Source of the DNA: Synechococcus sp. AG-686-F08
GTDB taxonomy: Bacteria > Cyanobacteriota > Cyanobacteriia > PCC-6307 > Cyanobiaceae
Assembly: GCA_003210315.1 (NCBI GenBank)
Contig: QCVQ01000013.1
Coordinates: 1-41,868 of the forward strand
DNA: 41,868 nt
Direction of reading: 5' to 3'
The number at the start of each line of letters is the position of its first letter. The first letter of the stretch is position 1. Below the pieces are notes generated by a model that had not been told where the DNA came from, did no database searches, and saw nothing but the letters and a program-made list of their open reading frames with translations. A program made the translations under genes and the position numbers. Shown piece after piece: positions 280 to 9,664 of this stretch.

Positions 280-1929
280 TTGCGGATGCCTGCACCGCTC
301 TCAAAGCCCACCAGGCAAGCCTTGGTTGCTGCGCTGATCTTTGCAGTCGTCGCACTCCTGCTGCAGGCTTGGCGCTCACACGTCCTCCTCGCCAGTTACG
401 ACCAAGGCATTTTTCAGCAAGTGCTGTGGAACAGCCTGCGGGGACACCTTTTTGAGAGCACGCTCTCCTCACAGCTCTCCACCAATGTGATCCACAGCGG
501 CGAGCCAGCAGGCTTGGGCTACGCGCGATTAGGCCAGCATTTCACCCCCTCCTTACTCCTATGGGCGCCTTTGTTAGGGCTCATCGGAGGTGCTGCACTT
601 CCACTTGTTCAAGTAGGACTCATCGTCTTAGCAGGCTTAGTGCTTCATCAACTCGCCCTTCAACTCGTTCCAGCAAGGACGGCGAACTGGCTGACGTATG
701 GGTTCTACGGAGGGAATGCACTCATTGGTCCCACCCTGGGCAATTTCACTGATCTCTGCCAGCTTCCCCTCGCTGTTTTTGCCTTAATGCTGGGTCTTCA
801 GAGGCGCATGGGGTGGTTGATCCTCAGCGCCGCTGTCGTGATCCCGCTCATTCGAGAAGACACCGGCATCATGCTGATTGCCATCGGACTTTGGTTGCTC
901 TTGCGAGAGCCCAAACGATGGCCCATCGCGATTGCCCTCATCATCTGGGGAGCTGGATGGATGGTGCTGGTCACCAATGCCTTAATGCCGCTGTTCTCGG
1001 ACGACAACAGCAAGCGGTTCATGGTGGAGAACTTTGGCCAATATCTCGACGTGGACTCGAGCGAAGGAGCCAGCAGCCTCTCAATGTTGCAGCAGGCTCT
1101 AAGCCATCCACTGGTCATGTTCAAGGAACTGATCTCCCCCCCAGGTCAGACCTTTTTGTACCTGCTTGGTCATGGACTTCCCTTCCTGATGGTGCCTCTG
1201 ATCAGCATGGATGCATGGGTTCTAGCGGGCCCGTCACTGCTTGGCTTATTTCTGGCACAAGGCAGCAATGACCCGCTCTCGATCACCATTCGCTACACAT
1301 TGCTAGTGGTACCGGGCTTCAGCCTGGGGGCACTGCTGTGGTGGAGCCGTCGCCAGCAACAGATCCCCGGCCGCCGCACTCGCCTGGCCTGGGGAATCGC
1401 CATCAGCCTTTCTCTCCTGCTCACCGTGAGCAGTAACCCCCATCGCAGCCTGTCGTGGATCGTGCCTGACAGTGTTAGTCCGCTGGTTTTTAGCAGTCCT
1501 ATTCAGCAATGGGAGCACGGTCAGGATGCCCGCCAAGTTTTGAATTTGATCCCCAAAAACGCTTCTGTGAGCGCTAATACCCCTCTAATTCCGTTGATCG
1601 CTCGACGTGAAGTTGCAGTCCGTTTTCCCGAATCGCTTTATTACCTCAACCGAGACAAGAAAAAACTGGCGGTGGATTGGATTGCCGTTGATCTCGATTG
1701 GTTGGAGCGCTACAGCGTGGCGTTTCGAAGTGATTGGCGTGAACTGAGCCGCATCAAGCAGGAGCTGCCTGATCAAATGGGTGCTTACCGGGTGCAAGGC
1801 CTCACGGATGGCATCGCCGTTTTGCAACATAACGGACCTTTAAACCCCGGATTAGAGCAGCAATTATTGAAACGGCTTGCAAAGCCTTTACCTCCTGACC
1901 CACGCCTGCATTCCAATAATCACTCTTAA
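280..1929 (+). CDS. DUF2079 family polytopic membrane protein (type A paralogue 1)
   Basis: This is a 549-residue integral membrane protein with many hydrophobic segments and few soluble stretches except the last ~130 residues. I recognise the DUF2079 family, a predicted GT-C-like membrane family of unknown substrate. Visible family-type motifs are YDQGIF after the first membrane segment (D41), LGQH (H87), NFTD (155-158) and RED (192-194). It is a clear paralogue of the minus-strand protein at 5037-6686: both are 549 residues and share SNPHR, VPDS.SP and a REVA.RFP block in the C-terminal soluble part. The frame opens with TTG at 280; an ATG two codons later (286) is equally plausible. No obvious Shine-Dalgarno sequence precedes either. 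Next to a GT39 protein, a role in transferring lipid-linked sugars at the membrane is my inference, not something shown by the sequence. Confidence 0.85.
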   Translation: MRMPAPLSKPTRQALVAALIFAVVALLLQAWRSHVLLASYDQGIFQQVLWNSLRGHLFESTLSSQLSTNVIHSGEPAGLGYARLGQHFTPSLLLWAPLLGLIGGAALPLVQVGLIVLAGLVLHQLALQLVPARTANWLTYGFYGGNALIGPTLGNFTDLCQLPLAVFALMLGLQRRMGWLILSAAVVIPLIREDTGIMLIAIGLWLLLREPKRWPIAIALIIWGAGWMVLVTNALMPLFSDDNSKRFMVENFGQYLDVDSSEGASSLSMLQQALSHPLVMFKELISPPGQTFLYLLGHGLPFLMVPLISMDAWVLAGPSLLGLFLAQGSNDPLSITIRYTLLVVPGFSLGALLWWSRRQQQIPGRRTRLAWGIAISLSLLLTVSSNPHRSLSWIVPDSVSPLVFSSPIQQWEHGQDARQVLNLIPKNASVSANTPLIPLIARREVAVRFPESLYYLNRDKKKLAVDWIAVDLDWLERYSVAFRSDWRELSRIKQELPDQMGAYRVQGLTDGIAVLQHNGPLNPGLEQQLLKRLAKPLPPDPRLHSNNHS

Positions 1930-1935
1930 AACGAT

Positions 1936-1962
1936 GCCCCCGACCAGAGACTGGTTGGGGGC
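1936..1962 (+). terminator. Strong stem-loop after the first DUF2079 gene, possible terminator
   Basis: A 12-bp stem (GCCCCCGACCAG pairing with CTGGTTGGGGGC, one G-T pair) with a three-base loop starts 7 bases after the stop codon. It is followed by TCTC rather than a T-run, so it is either a terminator of the weak-tail kind or a 3'-end stabilising hairpin. The rest of the gap to the next gene (1963-2108) holds nothing I can identify. Confidence 0.5.
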
Positions 1963-2108
1963 TCTCGCCGGGTCCGCTCTGGCGCGGAACCGATTGATCA
2001 GTCAGAAGACAATGCCGTCAGCCGGCGTTCTCCGCGATCAGCAGACCCTGGGTCAAACAACTGGAACTCATGGACACCTCCTCCTGGATGGATAGATGAA
2101 CGCCGGCG

Positions 2109-3731
2109 ATGCATTCGGTCTCATTCATGAACCCGAAGGTCGAGGATGAGACCACATCACTGCGAACTAGTCCTTTGCAAGATAACGGACGCTGGGGGCT
2201 TACGGCAGTGCAATTGCCGCTTTTGCTCTGGTTGCTCACCCTGCTGATTTGGCTTCCTTGGCTGGGCAATATGCCACTGCGGGATTGGGATGAAGCATTA
2301 GTGGCAGGAGTCTCCCGTTCCACCGCAGCACAACCAGCTTGGGACTGGCTTTTAGCCATTAAAAATAGTGAGGCGATTTACCTCAACAAACCCCCAGGAC
2401 TGCACTGGCTGATCGGTGCATCGATCAAGCGGTTTGGAGACGTTGATTGGGCCGTTCGCCTGATGCCAAGTCTGCTGGCCAGCTTGGCCGTACCACTGAT
2501 CGTGATCCTGCGACGACAGCTCAGCAGTGGGAAGGAGAAGGGGGCTGAGCGCTCGGCTCTTTGTTCTGGCTTGATCCTGATGACCCTGTTGCCCATGGCT
2601 CGTCATGGGCGACTGGCGATGTTGGACGGGACTCTTGTGAGCTGCAGTTTGCTGCTGATCAGCGGTTGGCTCAGCAGCAAACGCTGGCCTTGGCATGGAT
2701 TGCTTGCCGGATTAGGAGGGAGCGGCATCTTGCTTCTGAAGCCACCAGCCCTGATTGGTTACATGGCCATGGTGGCGATTATTACCTTTTTAGACAGGCC
2801 AACGAGCAGAAAGAGCTCAGCCTTGGGCTGGGCCATGAGCGGCCTTATTCCTGGAGCGCTTTGGCACATCTGGCACTTTTGGCAGCGCGGAAGCGATGCA
2901 CTCGTGATGTGGGGCGGTCAGGGGTTTGGTCGCGTCACCGAAGTTGTCGGCAACAACAGTGGGGCCTGGGTGATGCCACTCACAGAAGTTCTTGAGGGGG
3001 GCTGGCCCTGGATCCTGCTCCTACCCAGCGGCGTGAACTGGGCATGGCGCCATCGCAAAACCTCGACCGGCTTATGGGAACTTGGCCTCCTGGTCGGTAG
3101 CGCGCTGATGGTGTTGCCCTTACGAACCCAATTGCCTTGGTACAGCCACCTCCTATGGCCACCAATCGCCCTTCTCTGCGGCGAAACCCTGGCTCTTCTC
3201 TTGAAGGACGGTCGCCCCCATTGGATCCCACATGCTTGGAAATGGATCGGAATTCTCCTCCTGATCAGCGCCATGGTTCTTACGGCGCTGAACGCGAGCG
3301 CGGCACTTCCAGTCCCAGCCTTGATTGCCGCAGGCCTCGGGTTACTGATCGGCGGACTGAAGCTCTCGAAGCCCCTGCAGCTCCAACGTCAGCAAGGTCT
3401 TGCCATTGTGATCACGGGTTGGAGCATTGGCCTGCTTGCGCTTTGGCATAGCCATCTATGGCTATGGGAGCTCAATGAAATCTGGGATCCCAGACCTGTG
3501 GCAGCACAAATCCAATTGCTCCCACCAGATGCGGTTGTGATGCTGGACGGATCTACACGCCCCTCACTCAACTGGTACGCGAAACGTCCTTTAAAGGAAT
3601 TGGATTCCAATCCTCGAGGAGAGTTTTGGCTCGTAAGCAAGAGCTTCCGCAAAGGATGCTCGACTGCGACAAACAGAACTCAGGGGGACGATTGGGCGCT
3701 CTGGCAATGCTCTTTCGCTGACCAACCATGA
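2109..3731 (+). CDS. GT39/PMT-like (ArnT-type) membrane glycosyltransferase
   Basis: This 540-residue polytopic membrane protein looks like the PMT_2 / ArnT group, which moves a sugar from a polyprenyl-phosphate donor to a lipid or protein on the outer face of the membrane. The first extracytoplasmic loop has RDWDEA, matching the acidic catalytic motif of this fold. It is followed by YLNKPPGLHWL, the KPP...W hallmark of the family, and by many hydrophobic segments. The last ~90 residues are soluble. ATG at 2109 is used here; a second ATG at 2127 is possible. Its stop overlaps the next start in an ATGA arrangement (3728-3731), so it is likely translated together with the following DUF2079 protein. 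The acceptor is unknown. Confidence 0.8.
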   Translation: MHSVSFMNPKVEDETTSLRTSPLQDNGRWGLTAVQLPLLLWLLTLLIWLPWLGNMPLRDWDEALVAGVSRSTAAQPAWDWLLAIKNSEAIYLNKPPGLHWLIGASIKRFGDVDWAVRLMPSLLASLAVPLIVILRRQLSSGKEKGAERSALCSGLILMTLLPMARHGRLAMLDGTLVSCSLLLISGWLSSKRWPWHGLLAGLGGSGILLLKPPALIGYMAMVAIITFLDRPTSRKSSALGWAMSGLIPGALWHIWHFWQRGSDALVMWGGQGFGRVTEVVGNNSGAWVMPLTEVLEGGWPWILLLPSGVNWAWRHRKTSTGLWELGLLVGSALMVLPLRTQLPWYSHLLWPPIALLCGETLALLLKDGRPHWIPHAWKWIGILLLISAMVLTALNASAALPVPALIAAGLGLLIGGLKLSKPLQLQRQQGLAIVITGWSIGLLALWHSHLWLWELNEIWDPRPVAAQIQLLPPDAVVMLDGSTRPSLNWYAKRPLKELDSNPRGEFWLVSKSFRKGCSTATNRTQGDDWALWQCSFADQP

Positions 3732-5167
3732 ACATCACGCCTCCCGCACGCCTGTGGTGGACATCCTTTGGTGTTGCGTTTTTGGGTTGGTGCCTGGCAG
3801 CTGCGCGCCATTGGCTGCTTCAGAGCAATGCCTATGACCTTGGACTGTTTGATCAATGGGCCTGGTTGATGGGCAATGGGTTGCCACCCATCTCCTCGAT
3901 GGAAAACGTTCATGTGCTGGCTGATCACGGAGCCTGGATGATCTATTGGTCCGGCTTGCTGTACTGGTTTCATCCATCGATTCATTGGCTGCTCGCAAGC
4001 CAAGCTCTTGCTCTAAGTATTACCGCGGTCCCTGTTTGGATGTTGGCAGCTCAAGCAGGTCTGTCCAGACGACTCTGCTGGTTTAGCTGCCTGTTGTGGT
4101 GGCTTCAACCCTTGGTCTTCAACGTCAATTTGTTTGATTTCCACCCTGAGACATGGGTCATCCCAGGGCTCGCCTTAGCGATTTGGTGCCAACGCCAGGA
4201 GCGCTTTGGTGGGTGGCTTGTGCTTCTGATTTTGATGCTGGGATGCCGCGATGGCCTTGTTCTCGTCACATGTGGATTAAGCCTCAGTTTGTTAATCCAA
4301 AGGCGCTGGCACTGGGCCATCGCAGGCGCAGGACTATCAATCGCCTGGATGCTGTTGTTGAGCCGGTGTATTTATCCTGTTTTCCGGAACGGTGAAGGAC
4401 CAAAAGCTGCCGGTCGCATGTTTTCCCATTTGGGAGATAACTTAGGTGACATTTTATTCACATTAATCAGCAAACCATGGCTTGCCTTCACGCACATCGA
4501 CTTGGGAGGCGGCGCCTTCTACCTCCTGCTCTTAATTCTCCCAACCCTTCCGTTCTGGAGACAACGCTCACTAATCATCCTGAGTGCAGCAATTCCTCTT
4601 TTGCTTGTCAACCTCAATGCAGAGGCATCGTCTTATAGGACTCTTATTCACCACTACAGCCTTCCAATTTCAGTCTTGAGCATTGCAGCAGCCATCGATG
4701 GATTAGCAATATATCCAAGAAGGCTCTTCCCTTGGAAAGGTTTCACTTGGGCGGTCGCCTGCTGGATTGCGCTTGCGAAACCTTGGTTTTTTACAGGGCC
4801 TTACCTCAACAAAGTGGGCATGATTGGCGATGTGAGTCAAGCCATCTCAAAGCTAAGTCCACAAGACAGGGTCCTAACAACCAGTTACTTAGTTCCACAG
4901 ATCAGTCAAAGGAAGCACGTAGCTTTCGCCAAACAATCTCTAAGCGAGCAATCCTTTGAGGATGGTTGGACGGTCTTTTTACTGAATCCAAAGAATCCAG
5001 GATGGGGCTCTAAAGGAAGTATCCAAAAACGCTTACTCAATCAGGCAGAAGACAGGAATTGGAGATGTCAGAGTTGGAATTCTGGCCTTGAACTTTGCCG
5101 GAAACCCGACGCAAAACAACAGCCCCATCTTCGCAAAAAACCCGTTCGTAACGTCCATCAGAAATAA
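3728..5167 (+). CDS. DUF2079 family membrane protein (type B paralogue 1)
   Basis: This 479-residue polytopic membrane protein belongs to the DUF2079 family. Motifs: YDLGLFDQ (D37), ADH (H67), FDFHPE (from residue 136), RDG (174-176) and a later HHYS. It is closest to the protein at 6800-8284, not to the 549-residue pair. Its ATG overlaps the stop of the GT39 gene, suggesting coupled translation. The region comparable with its paralogue ends near LCRK (5093-5104). The final ~20 residues, rich in Lys/Arg/Gln/His, are encoded antisense to the C-terminal codons of the minus-strand DUF2079 gene. They therefore look like read-through tail rather than conserved domain. Function is unproven; membrane glycosyl transfer is inferred from context and fold type. 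Confidence 0.82.
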   Translation: MNITPPARLWWTSFGVAFLGWCLAAARHWLLQSNAYDLGLFDQWAWLMGNGLPPISSMENVHVLADHGAWMIYWSGLLYWFHPSIHWLLASQALALSITAVPVWMLAAQAGLSRRLCWFSCLLWWLQPLVFNVNLFDFHPETWVIPGLALAIWCQRQERFGGWLVLLILMLGCRDGLVLVTCGLSLSLLIQRRWHWAIAGAGLSIAWMLLLSRCIYPVFRNGEGPKAAGRMFSHLGDNLGDILFTLISKPWLAFTHIDLGGGAFYLLLLILPTLPFWRQRSLIILSAAIPLLLVNLNAEASSYRTLIHHYSLPISVLSIAAAIDGLAIYPRRLFPWKGFTWAVACWIALAKPWFFTGPYLNKVGMIGDVSQAISKLSPQDRVLTTSYLVPQISQRKHVAFAKQSLSEQSFEDGWTVFLLNPKNPGWGSKGSIQKRLLNQAEDRNWRCQSWNSGLELCRKPDAKQQPHLRKKPVRNVHQK

Positions 5168-6686
5168 GTTCTTGCAACTCATTTAGGATTCCTCGTTGCT
5201 GTTCCGTTTCTCGTTTAAACAATGGCACCAGAGGGGAGTAGTAACCAGGAAAGGCCGCGACCCAATCCACCTCCTGAATTTTCCCCTCGCGATCCAGGTA
5301 ACTCACACCATTGGGGAAGCGAATGGCCACCTCACGCTGAGCAAGCCATGGGAGCAAAGGAGTATCTGCACTAACAGAATCTGTGGGTGGAATCAGGGAG
5401 AGGGCTTTACGCCCTACTGCGCGTCGCTTAAGCATCTCCGAGGGAGACACATGCACCCATGGCGAAAAGCTATCTGGCACCACTGCCGAAAAGGTTCTAT
5501 GCGGATTACTCACAAGGGTGAGCAAAAGGCCAATACTCAGGGCAGTAGTCCAGCAGGGTCGCAACCAGCGTTTCTTCCAAATCGATGGATTGGATTGCCA
5601 CAACAACAACGTGCCGATGTACAAACCTGGAACAAGAGCCAGGACATAGCGAAGCGTCACGGCGAGAGCAGTTCGCCCCTGCGATAGCAAAGCAATCAGC
5701 AGCGGTGCGCTCACAATCAACGTCACATCAACTGAAAACAAAGGCACCAACAAAAGGGGCAATGTGAGTGCTAATAAAAAGCCTAGCGTTGCTCCAGGTG
5801 GACTCACCAAGGCCCCCAATAGTGCCACTGGCTTTTGCGCCATCTGCAGCAGAACCGACAAAGTCCCTCCCGAGACATCCTCAACAAGATGTCCAAATTT
5901 TTCCTGAAGAAAACGATCAGATAGTGATGCATCTACAGAAGGCTGAACAAAGCCCGTGACAAGAAAGACCCAGGCAAATGAAATCAGCATCAACCCAACC
6001 CCAACTCGACGCACATCAGGCCTGCGAACAGCCGCCCAAAGGCCAATTGAAAAGAGCAATAGACCACTGTCTTCTCTCACCAACAACAAGGCAATAGAGG
6101 GGGTAATGACCAGCCATAAGCGGCGATCGAGCAATCCCCCGAGGATTAAAAATCCAAGCAAGGGGTACCAAATCAAGTCGTGAAAGTTTTCGAGCATCGG
6201 GCCAAGGACAGCCCCACTGAGGAAATAACTCAACGTGAGACGCCAAGCCAACTCCTCAGGCAATCGCTGTTGAGCCAAGCGCCAAAGGATCAAACCTGCC
6301 GCCGTTAAGACCGTTGCCTGTGCAAAAGGAAGGACGATCCACCCGAAGACAGCAACGGCTGGCGCCAAAAGAAGCGTCAGTGCGTTGGCATGCTGACCTA
6401 GGTGTAGATAGTCAACATGCGGCAAGCTGCCATTCACTGCCACAGCAGATGACAAGACTGACGACAAACTGCTTTCAAAAGGGCGACCTTGCGCAGTCGA
6501 CCACAACTCCTGCAGGAATAACGCCTGGTCATAAGTGGCCCCGAAACTTTCAAGCCTCCAGATCTGGAGTGAAAAACCAAGAAGCCAGAAGCCAGCGGCT
6601 AGCCCTAGAACTGCAGGTGGCCAAGATCTGGTGAGGCGATTCCAGATCTTGAGCGATGACATCGAATTCAGGATTGCACCAAGCAT
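5037..6686 (-). CDS. DUF2079 family membrane protein (type A paralogue 2)
   Basis: This 549-residue DUF2079 membrane protein is a paralogue of the protein at 280-1929. Shared landmarks: TYDQALF (D53), LGQH (H99), ENFHD (from 166), RED (204-206), SNPHR, VPDS.SP and a REVAIRFP block. About 400 residues of hydrophobic segments are followed by a soluble tail. Alignment to its paralogue ends at VVLRRV (about 5103-5120). The last 21 residues, Ser/Asn-rich, are encoded antisense to the end of the plus-strand DUF2079 gene, giving a 131-base tail-to-tail overlap. ATG at 6686 is used; an in-frame ATG at 6662 is an alternative. With the upstream minus-strand gene (113-base gap) it probably forms a two-gene transcription unit. 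Confidence 0.82.
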   Translation of the reverse strand: MLGAILNSMSSLKIWNRLTRSWPPAVLGLAAGFWLLGFSLQIWRLESFGATYDQALFLQELWSTAQGRPFESSLSSVLSSAVAVNGSLPHVDYLHLGQHANALTLLLAPAVAVFGWIVLPFAQATVLTAAGLILWRLAQQRLPEELAWRLTLSYFLSGAVLGPMLENFHDLIWYPLLGFLILGGLLDRRLWLVITPSIALLLVREDSGLLLFSIGLWAAVRRPDVRRVGVGLMLISFAWVFLVTGFVQPSVDASLSDRFLQEKFGHLVEDVSGGTLSVLLQMAQKPVALLGALVSPPGATLGFLLALTLPLLLVPLFSVDVTLIVSAPLLIALLSQGRTALAVTLRYVLALVPGLYIGTLLLWQSNPSIWKKRWLRPCWTTALSIGLLLTLVSNPHRTFSAVVPDSFSPWVHVSPSEMLKRRAVGRKALSLIPPTDSVSADTPLLPWLAQREVAIRFPNGVSYLDREGKIQEVDWVAAFPGYYSPLVPLFKRETEQQRGILNELQELISDGRYERVFCEDGAVVLRRVSGKVQGQNSNSDISNSCLLPD

Positions 6687-6799
6687 GTTTATCTAAAATC
6701 CCTACTTAGAAAAAACGAAATCATTTCAATCCACAGGATGTAAAAGATGCTACCCAAGCAACCATTTAATAAGAACACAACATCTTCAACCAATTTTCA

Positions 6800-8284
6800 T
6801 CACTTCTTCGCTCTACACAATCTAATGTAGCTATTGGGCTGATCACAATGCATTCCTGCTTCCTTCGCCATTTCAACAACGTCACTCATTTTCTGACCAA
6901 TTTTCGTTTGCCCAACTTCCCTTAGCCTCCCTCTCACATTAATCAAGGCGTTCTCACTAGGAAAAACGATCACATCAAAAGGCCATCTTTGCTGATAATC
7001 CTCTTTTTCTATTTGAGATATGTGCTCACGCCCAGCCAGATGAACCACATAATTAGAAGAGGCAAGAATAGACTCTTGCGGGCCAATACCAGAAACAACA
7101 GACTGAAAAGCGACTGCCTCTGGCAAACGTGGTAGATATCGGGATTGGAAATACGTGATTCGTGAGTAACCCAAGAATGCCACCATCGACAAAACGAGGG
7201 TGACACTGAATACATTCTTCTGAACCTGAATCACTTTGGCGGAGATCAATGGCATCGAGTCAAGACAACCAGCAATCAAAAAGGCCAGGATCGGAATGGA
7301 GTAATGATGATTCAACTCACGCTGAATACCCGAATCAGAAATAATATTCACCAAGAAAACCGGGGTTGCACCAAGCAAACATGCCAATGCCGGCTGTCGC
7401 AGAAGAGCAAGAAAGGGAAGCGAAAGCCCCAAGCTATATAGAAAAATAGTGGAGGGAGACGCAACGCTAAAAACGATCCAAGGGCGCATCAGCAAGGTTG
7501 TAATCATCTCCAACTTCGTGTCACCCAAATAGCCCAAGCGGATCGCGACATGGTCGCCCCCCGCAGCAGAAAGATGCGTGGCCAAAAACCACCAAAAAAT
7601 TGAAATTACAATCGTAATCAAACCCCTGGAATATCTACCCTTTGCGATCGCATACAAACCCAAGCCAAGGCCAAATAGAGCCTGGGCATTTTTAGCAAAT
7701 AGTGTGATGAATAGGCAAAAATAATAGCGCCATCTTCCCGCCCGAGTTGCCTCAAAAATGGCAACAATCATGAACGGGATCGTGAGGACATCTGGATGAA
7801 AATCCCCCCTATTCACCAAAAAACTATAGGGGCAAAGAACGATGGCGCAGATTAGGGCCCAAACAAGCCGGGCTTTAACCTGACGCTGCACCGCCACATA
7901 GGCAGCAACAGCAGGGAGAGATCCCAAAGCAATCGACTGCAAGCCTATTAAGGTGAACGTCGAGGGGAAAAACTTATAAACTGCGCCCAGAGGAAGAAGG
8001 AGAAGCGAGAAATGATCCTCCAAGGGAGCGACCTGCCTCAAGCTACTAATCGCCGTTAACCTACCCTCACCAATCAGCCAGCTAAATTGCTCAAAAAGCC
8101 CAATATCCCAAACCTGAGTGCCAAACAGATAATGCTGAAAAGCAGCCGTTGCAAAAAGGATACTTGCGTAGACAATAGAAACAATTAAAGCTGCACGCTC
8201 TATTGATGGGCCTTGCTTAAAGTTGCAATTCACTTCGCCCACATCAACCACACCAGCTTCAAGCCGAGCAAACACTGCAGACAA
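6800..8284 (-). CDS. DUF2079 family membrane protein (type B paralogue 2, altered motif)
   Basis: This 494-residue polytopic membrane protein is related to the DUF2079 protein at 3728-5167. Shared landmarks: WDIGLFEQ (D60), EDH (H91), GDFHPD (160-165) and HHYS. At the position where its three relatives carry RED, RED and RD it reads AKNAQ (197-201), so the conserved acidic residue(s) are missing. By eye it is more A+T-rich than the neighbouring DUF2079 genes, and it sits in A+T-rich flanks. The N-terminal ~28 residues before the first hydrophobic segment are hydrophilic, so the true start may lie downstream. Lower activity, a changed substrate or a purely structural role are all possible. Confidence 0.78.
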   Translation of the reverse strand: MSAVFARLEAGVVDVGEVNCNFKQGPSIERAALIVSIVYASILFATAAFQHYLFGTQVWDIGLFEQFSWLIGEGRLTAISSLRQVAPLEDHFSLLLLPLGAVYKFFPSTFTLIGLQSIALGSLPAVAAYVAVQRQVKARLVWALICAIVLCPYSFLVNRGDFHPDVLTIPFMIVAIFEATRAGRWRYYFCLFITLFAKNAQALFGLGLGLYAIAKGRYSRGLITIVISIFWWFLATHLSAAGGDHVAIRLGYLGDTKLEMITTLLMRPWIVFSVASPSTIFLYSLGLSLPFLALLRQPALACLLGATPVFLVNIISDSGIQRELNHHYSIPILAFLIAGCLDSMPLISAKVIQVQKNVFSVTLVLSMVAFLGYSRITYFQSRYLPRLPEAVAFQSVVSGIGPQESILASSNYVVHLAGREHISQIEKEDYQQRWPFDVIVFPSENALINVRGRLREVGQTKIGQKMSDVVEMAKEAGMHCDQPNSYIRLCRAKK

Positions 8285-8608: not shown

Positions 8609-9664
8609 TCAGAGTGCGTTACCGCGAGGCAGAACCTCTTCAGGGAAGACGAAGTTTTCGTGCGGCTGGTCAGCCGGTGCCATCCAGGCACGCAGACCTT
8701 CATTCAGAAGAATGTTCTTCGTGTAGAAGGTTTCAAATTCAGGATCCTCAGCTGCGCGGATTTCCTGTGACACGAAGTCATAGGCACGCAAGTTGAGTGC
8801 AAGGCCGATGATGCCGATGGAACTGGTCCACAGGCCCATCACTGGCACGAACAGCATGAAGAAGTGCAGCCAACGCTTGTTGGAAAACGCAATTCCGAAG
8901 ATTTGGCTCCAGAAACGGTTGGCGGTGACCATCGAATAGGTCTCTTCTTCCTGGGTGGGTTCAAACGCCTTGAAGGTGTTCGACTGTTCACCATCCTCAA
9001 AAAGGGTGTTTTCCACAGTCGCGCCGTGAATGGCGCAAAGCAGTGCACCGCCAAGAATGCCGGCCACTCCCATCATGTGGAATGGATTCAGGGTCCAGTT
9101 ATGGAAGCCCTGGAGGAACAACAGGAAGCGGAAAATTGCAGCCACACCAAAGGAGGGCGCAAAGAACCAGCTGCTCTGTCCCAAGGGGTACATCAAGAAG
9201 ACACTGACGAACACCGCAATCGGACCTGAGAAGGCGATGGCGTTGTAAGGACGAATGCCGACGAGACGAGCAATTTCGAACTGACGCAGCATGAAGCCGA
9301 TCAGTGCGAAGGCGCCGTGGAGAGCAACGAAAGCCCAGAGGCCTCCAAGTTGACACCAGCGGACAAAATCACCCTGGGCTTCTGGGCCCCAGAGCAAGAG
9401 AAGGCTGTGACCCATCGCATCAGCGGGGGTGGACACAGCAGCGGTGAGAAAGTTGCAACCCTCGAGGTACGACGACGCGATGCCGTGGGTGTACCAGGAA
9501 GTTACAAAAGTGGTTCCCGTTAACCAGCCACCAATGGAGAGGTAGGCCGTGGGGAGAAGAAGAATGCCGGACCAGCCGACAAAAACAAATCGGTCGCGTT
9601 TGAGCCAGTCATCGAGGACGTCGAACCATCCCCGCTGCGGCATGCGACCTGCAGCGATCGTCAT
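8609..9664 (-). CDS. psbD: Photosystem II reaction centre D2 protein
   Basis: This 351-residue protein is the D2 core subunit of photosystem II in the thylakoid membrane. With D1 it binds P680, pheophytin, QA and the non-haem iron. The sequence is unmistakable from N-terminus ([20 protein letters not shown]) to C-terminus ([12 protein letters not shown]), is full length, and includes the donor-side and quinone-side helices with their conserved histidines. There is no psbC downstream: a terminator follows at once. In cyanobacteria one psbD copy usually overlaps psbC and a second copy stands alone and is light-responsive, so this is probably the stand-alone copy (psbD2). That assignment is inference because the rest of the genome is not visible. 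Confidence 0.97.

Follow-up and report, generated by a model that had tools for sequence, protein, structure and literature searches.

We analysed a 41,868-nucleotide stretch of Synechococcus sp. AG-686-F08, below called the window, which is contig C13 from its first base in an assembly of 1.58 Mb (64 contigs, 58.85% complete). Five long open reading frames (ORFs) fill positions 280 to 8284: four intact genes of the family DUF2079 and one PMT_2/ArnT-like gene. We consider it likely that all five encode GT-C glycosyltransferases, which would use polyprenyl-phosphate sugars to decorate an acceptor in the cell envelope. Its gene content represents one of several states of a GT-C gene array that varies among relatives but keeps a fixed site between SLH-OprB porin genes and psbD. 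An earlier note, made from the sequence alone, had described the packing of these five genes, which ORFs and Pfam bear out, and had taken the DUF2079 proteins for GT-C-type enzymes. The latter is supported by the predicted fold of two of them, by conservation and by co-location, while profiles alone show no link. Its view of a five-gene system did not hold, since the genes are one arrangement of the array and not a set unit.

The first DUF2079 gene, P1 (280-1929, forward strand, 549 residues), starts with TTG, and an ATG follows two codons further in. The ArnT/PMT-like transferase gene (2109-3731, 540 residues, PMT_2) and P3 (3728-5167, 479 residues) are encoded on the same strand, P4 (5037-6686, 549 residues) and P5 (6800-8284, 494 residues) on the reverse strand. 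All were assigned with the ORF list and Pfam, together with models (P1, P3), alignments (P4, P5 and the ArnT-like protein) and NCBIfam (ArnT-like protein). The Pfam matches to DUF2079 (PF09852) have E-values of 5e-129 for P1 (431.8 bits), 1.5e-101 for P3 (341.2 bits), 2.9e-129 for P4 (432.5 bits) and 5.5e-42 for P5 (144.8 bits), all above the gathering cut-off of 28.2 bits. All four DUF2079 matches in the 1.58 Mb assembled for the source genome sit inside the block, and this clustering of its four known DUF2079 genes within 8 kb is not due to chance.

Predicted fold and topology of DUF2079

The DUF2079 proteins split into two subfamilies, A (P1 and P4, 38% identical over 499 positions) and B (P3 and P5, 28% identical over 457 positions); the best alignment between P1 and P3 spans just 88 positions. 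One AlphaFold model was used per subfamily, P1 for A (predicted local distance difference test, pLDDT, 92.9; predicted template modelling score, pTM, 0.93) and P3 for B (pLDDT 88.2, pTM 0.88). Foldseek returned 13 matches with E ≤ 0.001 for P1 and 10 for P3, by title all GT-C enzymes or complexes containing oligosaccharyltransferase (OST). They include OST (8.2e-5) and ArnT (4.4e-4) for P1 and ALG12 (8.2e-5) and ArnT (1.8e-4) for P3.

The comparison with ArnT and PMT structures that the earlier note had called for found the folds not to be unrelated to GT-C. With VIA-align, P3 matched Pmt4 with Z 21.8 (311 residues) and ArnT (5f15) with Z 19.9 (407 residues, 4.8 Å), and P1 matched Pmt4 with Z 17.2 (316 residues), PglB with 16.3 (404 residues) and ArnT (5f15) with 14.8 (410 residues). 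For both models the highest Z scores belong to the protein O-mannosyltransferases Pmt4 and Pmt1-Pmt2, over 311-323 residues; there is no detected sequence similarity to them, and the C-terminal part of the DUF2079 proteins lies outside these alignments, which end at residue 357 of P3 and at about 400 of P1. By title, the best 50 rows of each list are GT-C enzymes, translocon maps containing OST and the glycosylphosphatidylinositol (GPI) transamidase (PIG-U). According to the tool's own warning, middling Z scores can arise by chance among helical proteins; the match is convincing because it covers nearly the full length and because there is a gap in the Z scores, with 57 chains at Z ≥ 8 for P1 and no more down to Z 5, and 57 and 61 for P3. 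Proteins of both DUF2079 subfamilies are thus predicted to have the GT-C glycosyltransferase fold, with matches over most of the length of the P1 and P3 models.

The P1 model has eleven membrane passes, within the 7-13 helices of GT-C enzymes; the passes were taken from its helix list with an assumed cytoplasmic N-terminus and borders set by hand. Lys and Arg number 11 among the 39 residues of inner loops but 7 among the 147 of outer loops, the C-terminal domain being left out of the count, and this distribution fits the positive-inside rule. All 11 conserved polar positions of P1 that were examined, from D41 to R443, fall in outer segments of the model, which would place the conserved polar residues on the extracytoplasmic face. 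Passages of PMC7801869 deal with loop residues in enzymes of the PMT type.

Conserved residues and the divergent P5

The conserved residues named in the earlier note, an Asp after the first helix, a loop His and a third motif, are all found. They were followed through 86 DUF2079 sequences (55 P1-like, 13 P4-like, 16 P3-like, 2 P5-like), which are the union of two alignments: A3, with the four window proteins and 66 of 78 A-type ORFs picked by hand, and A4, with the four window proteins plus 28 further sequences. All 86 have the Asp that follows helix 1 (D41 in P1, D53 in P4, D37 in P3, D60 in P5). The loop His (H87, H99, H67 and H91, respectively) is present in 85, as are S60 and R443, with one unread residue in each case. 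The third motif reads NFTD in P1, NFHD in P4, DFHPE in P3 and DFHPD in P5.

Further conserved residues distinguish the subfamilies. Subfamily A has the pattern Q-H, N-F/Y-x-D, R-E-D (with few exceptions) and R338; besides D41 and H87, P1 carries N155-F-T-D158, R192-E-D194, R338 and R443, and P4 carries N167-F-H-D170 and R204-E-D206 in addition to D53 and H99. Subfamily B has D-H, D-x-H and H309, and R-D in 13 of the 16 P3-like sequences; P3 itself shows D37, H67, D137-F-H, R174-D175 and H309.

P5 keeps D60 and H91, but has K198-N-A in place of the R-E/D of the other members, and so has its ortholog in L085 (two of two P5-like sequences; loci carry L numbers). Part of the DUF2079 set might therefore be non-catalytic, with P5 and perhaps others serving as partner or regulatory subunits of active GT-C enzymes. 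The K-N-A replacement and the low Pfam score that marks P5 as the most divergent member speak for this possibility. It nevertheless seems unlikely to us, if worth keeping in mind, as P5 retains the Asp and the His, is constrained like its neighbours (omega, the ratio of nonsynonymous to synonymous substitution rates, 0.12-0.14) and is not alone in its deviation: three P3-like sequences also deviate at the acid of R-E/D, which may for this reason be dispensable in subfamily B.

The ArnT-like gene

The second gene matches PMT_2 (PF13231) with 31.1 bits (3.3e-7), above the gathering cut-off of 26.1 bits. It shares with ArnT, the aminoarabinose transferase to lipid A, and with bacterial PMT_2 proteins the RDWDE motif (residues 58-62) and K94, which are invariant in 24 aligned relatives. 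It differs from ArnT proper in that the ArnT equivalog NF009784 scores 25.1 bits (residues 38-177), below its curated cut-off of 567, and the DUF2079 proteins for their part are without a detectable sequence match to the PMT_2/ArnT family. Searched alone with phmmer, the ArnT-like protein had no meaningful match among the sequences of the Protein Data Bank (PDB); a profile of its family found a weak match to Pmt4 alone (E 0.092).

Organization of the block

Three genes on the forward and two on the reverse strand form two convergent halves, and a reading of the block as one operon was ruled out for that reason. The stop of the ArnT-like gene and the start of P3 share 4 bases. The 3' ends of P3 and P4 share 131 bases (5037-5167) on opposite strands, and a single stretch therefore encodes two membrane enzymes. 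A tail-to-tail overlap of 107-134 bases is also present in nine relatives (L066, L069, L070, L085, L086, L089, L090, L091 and L095), in two of which, L069 and L095, P4 seems broken. Compared with two relatives, omega is 0.11-0.18 for all five genes and 0.01-0.03 for psbD; judged by these values, all five are under purifying selection. Among the named relatives found, Synechococcus sp. SP2 (L085) is the nearest, with a P1 that is 89% identical.

A variable array at a fixed site

The array was mapped in 20 regions from relatives and in public records (best 80 of 208 relatives), with ORFs labelled by profiles built from relatives and representatives checked by Pfam. In picocyanobacteria it is flanked by a cysK-dnaJ-porin side and a psbD-ABC side. 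In the window the right border is psbD, the gene of the photosystem II protein D2 (8609-9664, reverse strand; ORF list and domain scan). As the window begins at a contig end, the region left of base 1 is known from relatives alone. Positions 1-279 align with the stretch between a divergent SLH-OprB porin gene and P1 in L066 and L067, so that a porin gene is probably what is missing on the left; repeated porin genes would also account for the contig break.

Among 22 distinct DUF2079 loci with both flanks, 15 arrangements were found, and 20 of these loci contain an ArnT-like gene. The 22 remain from 23 after removal of L107, the same record as L084; L067 and L085 as well as L082 and L140 are also double records, and in L093 and L098 the small gene c7 is the only sign of the right flank. 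The three A genes of L069 probably include one gene split in two, and L118 probably has a second PMT_2 gene that was removed by the overlap filter. The array can also encode a second PMT_2, a PMT-type protein of greater length and a GT2-GtrA fusion. The ArnT-like gene with internal stops and P4 in pieces are seen in L049, L056, L057, L058 and L095, and these broken copies suggest ongoing gene loss at the site.

Two loci with a cyanobacterial array or a porin-PMT-DUF2079 locus, L087 and L105, are titled Gammaproteobacteria bacterium and Bifidobacterium breve and are probably mislabelled metagenome bins. Some relatives share a protein of 320-346 residues (group c19; L080:12582-13622, L087:3405-4367) that is encoded toward the psbD end of the array; it had no Pfam match in L080 and L087. 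A mobile-element origin of the block was considered and rejected, as with the queries used no relatives were found in viral contigs (ArnT-like protein and DUF2079 alignment), phages (P3) or plasmids (P1).

The left border consists of one to four porin genes, and the four porins scanned all carry OprB and SLH domains. This neighbourhood raises an alternative for the acceptor, namely that the array glycosylates proteins, with PMT-like O-glycosylation of the adjacent SLH-OprB porins or of other envelope proteins. The top Z scores of Pmt4 and Pmt1-Pmt2 agree with it, but the scores of ArnT, ALG and OST folds come close to these, which leaves the fold silent on the acceptor. The proximity, too, may reflect the shared site alone, and the porin genes are divergent. 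Judged by titles, no paper on glycosylation of Synechococcus porins or SomA was found in the open library searched. We regard protein glycosylation as unlikely. Because the array keeps its place next to SLH-OprB porin genes while its genes vary from strain to strain, it probably sets a strain-specific envelope glycan.

Co-occurrence of DUF2079 and the ArnT-like gene

The survey of co-occurrence proposed in the earlier note supports an association of the two families. Among 300 genomes of the window's family, DUF2079 is present in 143 and a relative of the ArnT-like gene in 158. Excluding the source genome (n = 299), 121 genomes have both, 21 DUF2079 only, 36 the ArnT-like gene only and 121 neither (odds ratio 19); the last count assumes that both surveys drew the same 300 genomes, as shared handles suggest, and the relatedness of the genomes inflates the significance (Fisher). 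The genes are usually close to each other: the two families are at most 8 kb apart in 54 of the 66 genomes with both places among the matches listed, and in 28 of the 32 single-contig genomes among these.

Donor genes

The absence of a donor gene from the block, as stated earlier, is correct for the window, but the arrays of several relatives hold a gene for donor synthesis. A GT2-GtrA fusion confirmed by Pfam lies inside the array in L077, L087, L120 and L125 (the last titled Prochlorococcus sp. AG-409-J16), and in L083 a GT2 gene lies 41 bases before a DUF2079 gene of subfamily B. GT2 genes were found in 14 of 101 mapped DUF2079 loci, a count that includes the window and a few double records. 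In the source genome itself, GtrA and GT2 genes adjoin on contig C31, unlinked to the block. A GtrB-type GT2 enzyme and GtrA are the donor-making pair of known periplasmic glucosylation, as parts of PMC11127046 describe. As the GT2-GtrA genes in the arrays of relatives match this pair, they favour, by analogy and circumstantially, a polyprenyl-phosphate sugar as donor. Contig C30 of the source genome (L177:1321-2742) encodes a further GtrA domain, here in fusion with a YdjC-like deacetylase domain; several relatives have frames of about this length with a match to GtrA.

DUF2079 outside the family of the window

DUF2079 was found in 86 of 244 sampled cyanobacterial genomes. Beside DUF2079 in 20 regions from other families, of which 20 neighbours were scanned, four had a GT-C, GT4 or flippase gene: PIG-V-like and PMT-like genes in L183, GT4 in L186, PMT_2 in L194 and MurJ in L196. 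In L185 a GT2 profile match lies about 3.7 kb from DUF2079. The remaining identified neighbours are unrelated. The array is thus an arrangement of picocyanobacteria, and clustering is not a necessary feature of DUF2079 genes.

In 20 of 47 mapped loci (among L136-L163, L140 and L141; mostly filamentous cyanobacteria by title), a gene of one cluster is divergent from a DUF2079 gene of subfamily A; both scanned members of this cluster are SasA-like, with a KaiB domain and a histidine kinase. Given these neighbours and the many unrelated ones elsewhere, we rejected a general association of DUF2079 with glycosylation genes. In other cyanobacteria (L179-L186), DUF2079 genes also stand in tandem, two or three at a time. 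The divergent neighbour in L179 is dxr, and divergent neighbours of equal length (396 residues) are present in L180, L181, L184 and L185.

The DUF2079 proteins might have kept a GT-C fold for another function, for example the movement of lipid-linked sugars; their clustering might then reflect only tandem duplication at an insertion-tolerant site. The tandem genes of other cyanobacteria that have no glycosylation genes beside them would fit this, as would the missing sequence link to proven transferases. We consider it quite improbable, however, as the acid after helix 1 is invariant, like that of the GT-C catalysis proposed in sections of PMC11127046, and as other GT-C and GT2 genes recur at the site.

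Discussion

In the mechanism that we propose, the ArnT/PMT-like enzyme and the four DUF2079 enzymes would be inner-membrane proteins whose active sites open toward the periplasm, and each would transfer a sugar from a polyprenyl-phosphate carrier to an envelope acceptor. The five may share one acceptor, as the earlier note proposed for the DUF2079 and ArnT-like proteins, and it may lie at the cell surface. The Asp after helix 1 would serve as catalytic acid/base or as metal ligand. A GT2 enzyme would charge the donor and a GtrA-type protein would flip it; several relatives may supply both from the fusion inside the array, and the source genome from the pair on the other contig. We infer the topology from the model and its charges, and likewise infer catalysis, the type of donor and the role in the envelope.

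Several observations weigh against this proposal. A shared fold is not proof of activity, and sequence comparison does not show DUF2079 to be homologous to the ArnT-like family (hhalign probabilities of 0.34% and 0.61%) and gives no meaningful DUF2079 match in PDB sequences, searched with phmmer and with profiles. In P5 the acid of the R-E/D motif is gone. No donor-synthase or flippase gene lies between base 1 and psbD in the window, and only 4 of the 22 loci with both flanks have a GT2 gene. In 12 of 66 genomes, among them four single-contig ones with the genes far apart, members of the two families do not come within 8 kb of each other, and beyond the family of the window DUF2079 is often located beside unrelated genes.

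The block has features in common with the three-component periplasmic systems covered in parts of PMC11127046 (GtrA-GtrB-Gtr and the pentofuranose system of C. youngae with GT136): a GT-C enzyme with an acid after helix 1 and, in the arrays of several relatives, an adjoining GT2 donor synthase and GtrA. It differs from them in that the window links neither a donor synthase nor a flippase to its GT-C genes, and in having several GT-C genes side by side and not one. Glycosyltransferase islands of picocyanobacteria are tied to phage resistance. They likewise contain strain-variable glycosyltransferase genes of the envelope type; the array described here differs in being short, in encoding mainly GT-C membrane enzymes and in occupying a single fixed porin-psbD site. 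For Prochlorococcus, the link between such islands and phage resistance is cited in a passage of PMC9716671.

A wider interpretation would join these points. DUF2079 would comprise a pair of unrecognised GT-C families, with the signatures DQ...QH...NF[TH]D...RED...RY for A and DL...DH...DFHP[ED]...RD...HHY for B. The porin-psbD site would be a picocyanobacterial cassette of interchangeable GT-C genes that decorate porins or an SLH-bound glycan strain by strain, and each strain would hence have its own sensitivity to phages and grazers. We put this combination, signatures included, forward as a tentative idea that is unlikely to be correct in all its parts.

GT-C enzymes as such were known already, and so were glycosyltransferase islands; new are the assignment of a structure to a large family that had not been characterised and the account of an array whose content varies while its site stays fixed. 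DUF2079 may already belong to the GT-C clan of Pfam, in which case the fold assignment would be a confirmation and not a discovery. No paper naming DUF2079 or COG3463 was found in the open library searched; the accession PF09852 occurs in one paper there, PMC3879021, the title of which refers to graphs of membrane-protein data. The GT-C fold and the named active-site candidates make the uncharacterised DUF2079 family a testable enzyme. The array is a defined place to seek envelope differences among Synechococcus and Prochlorococcus strains, and such differences may matter for attack by phages and for grazing.

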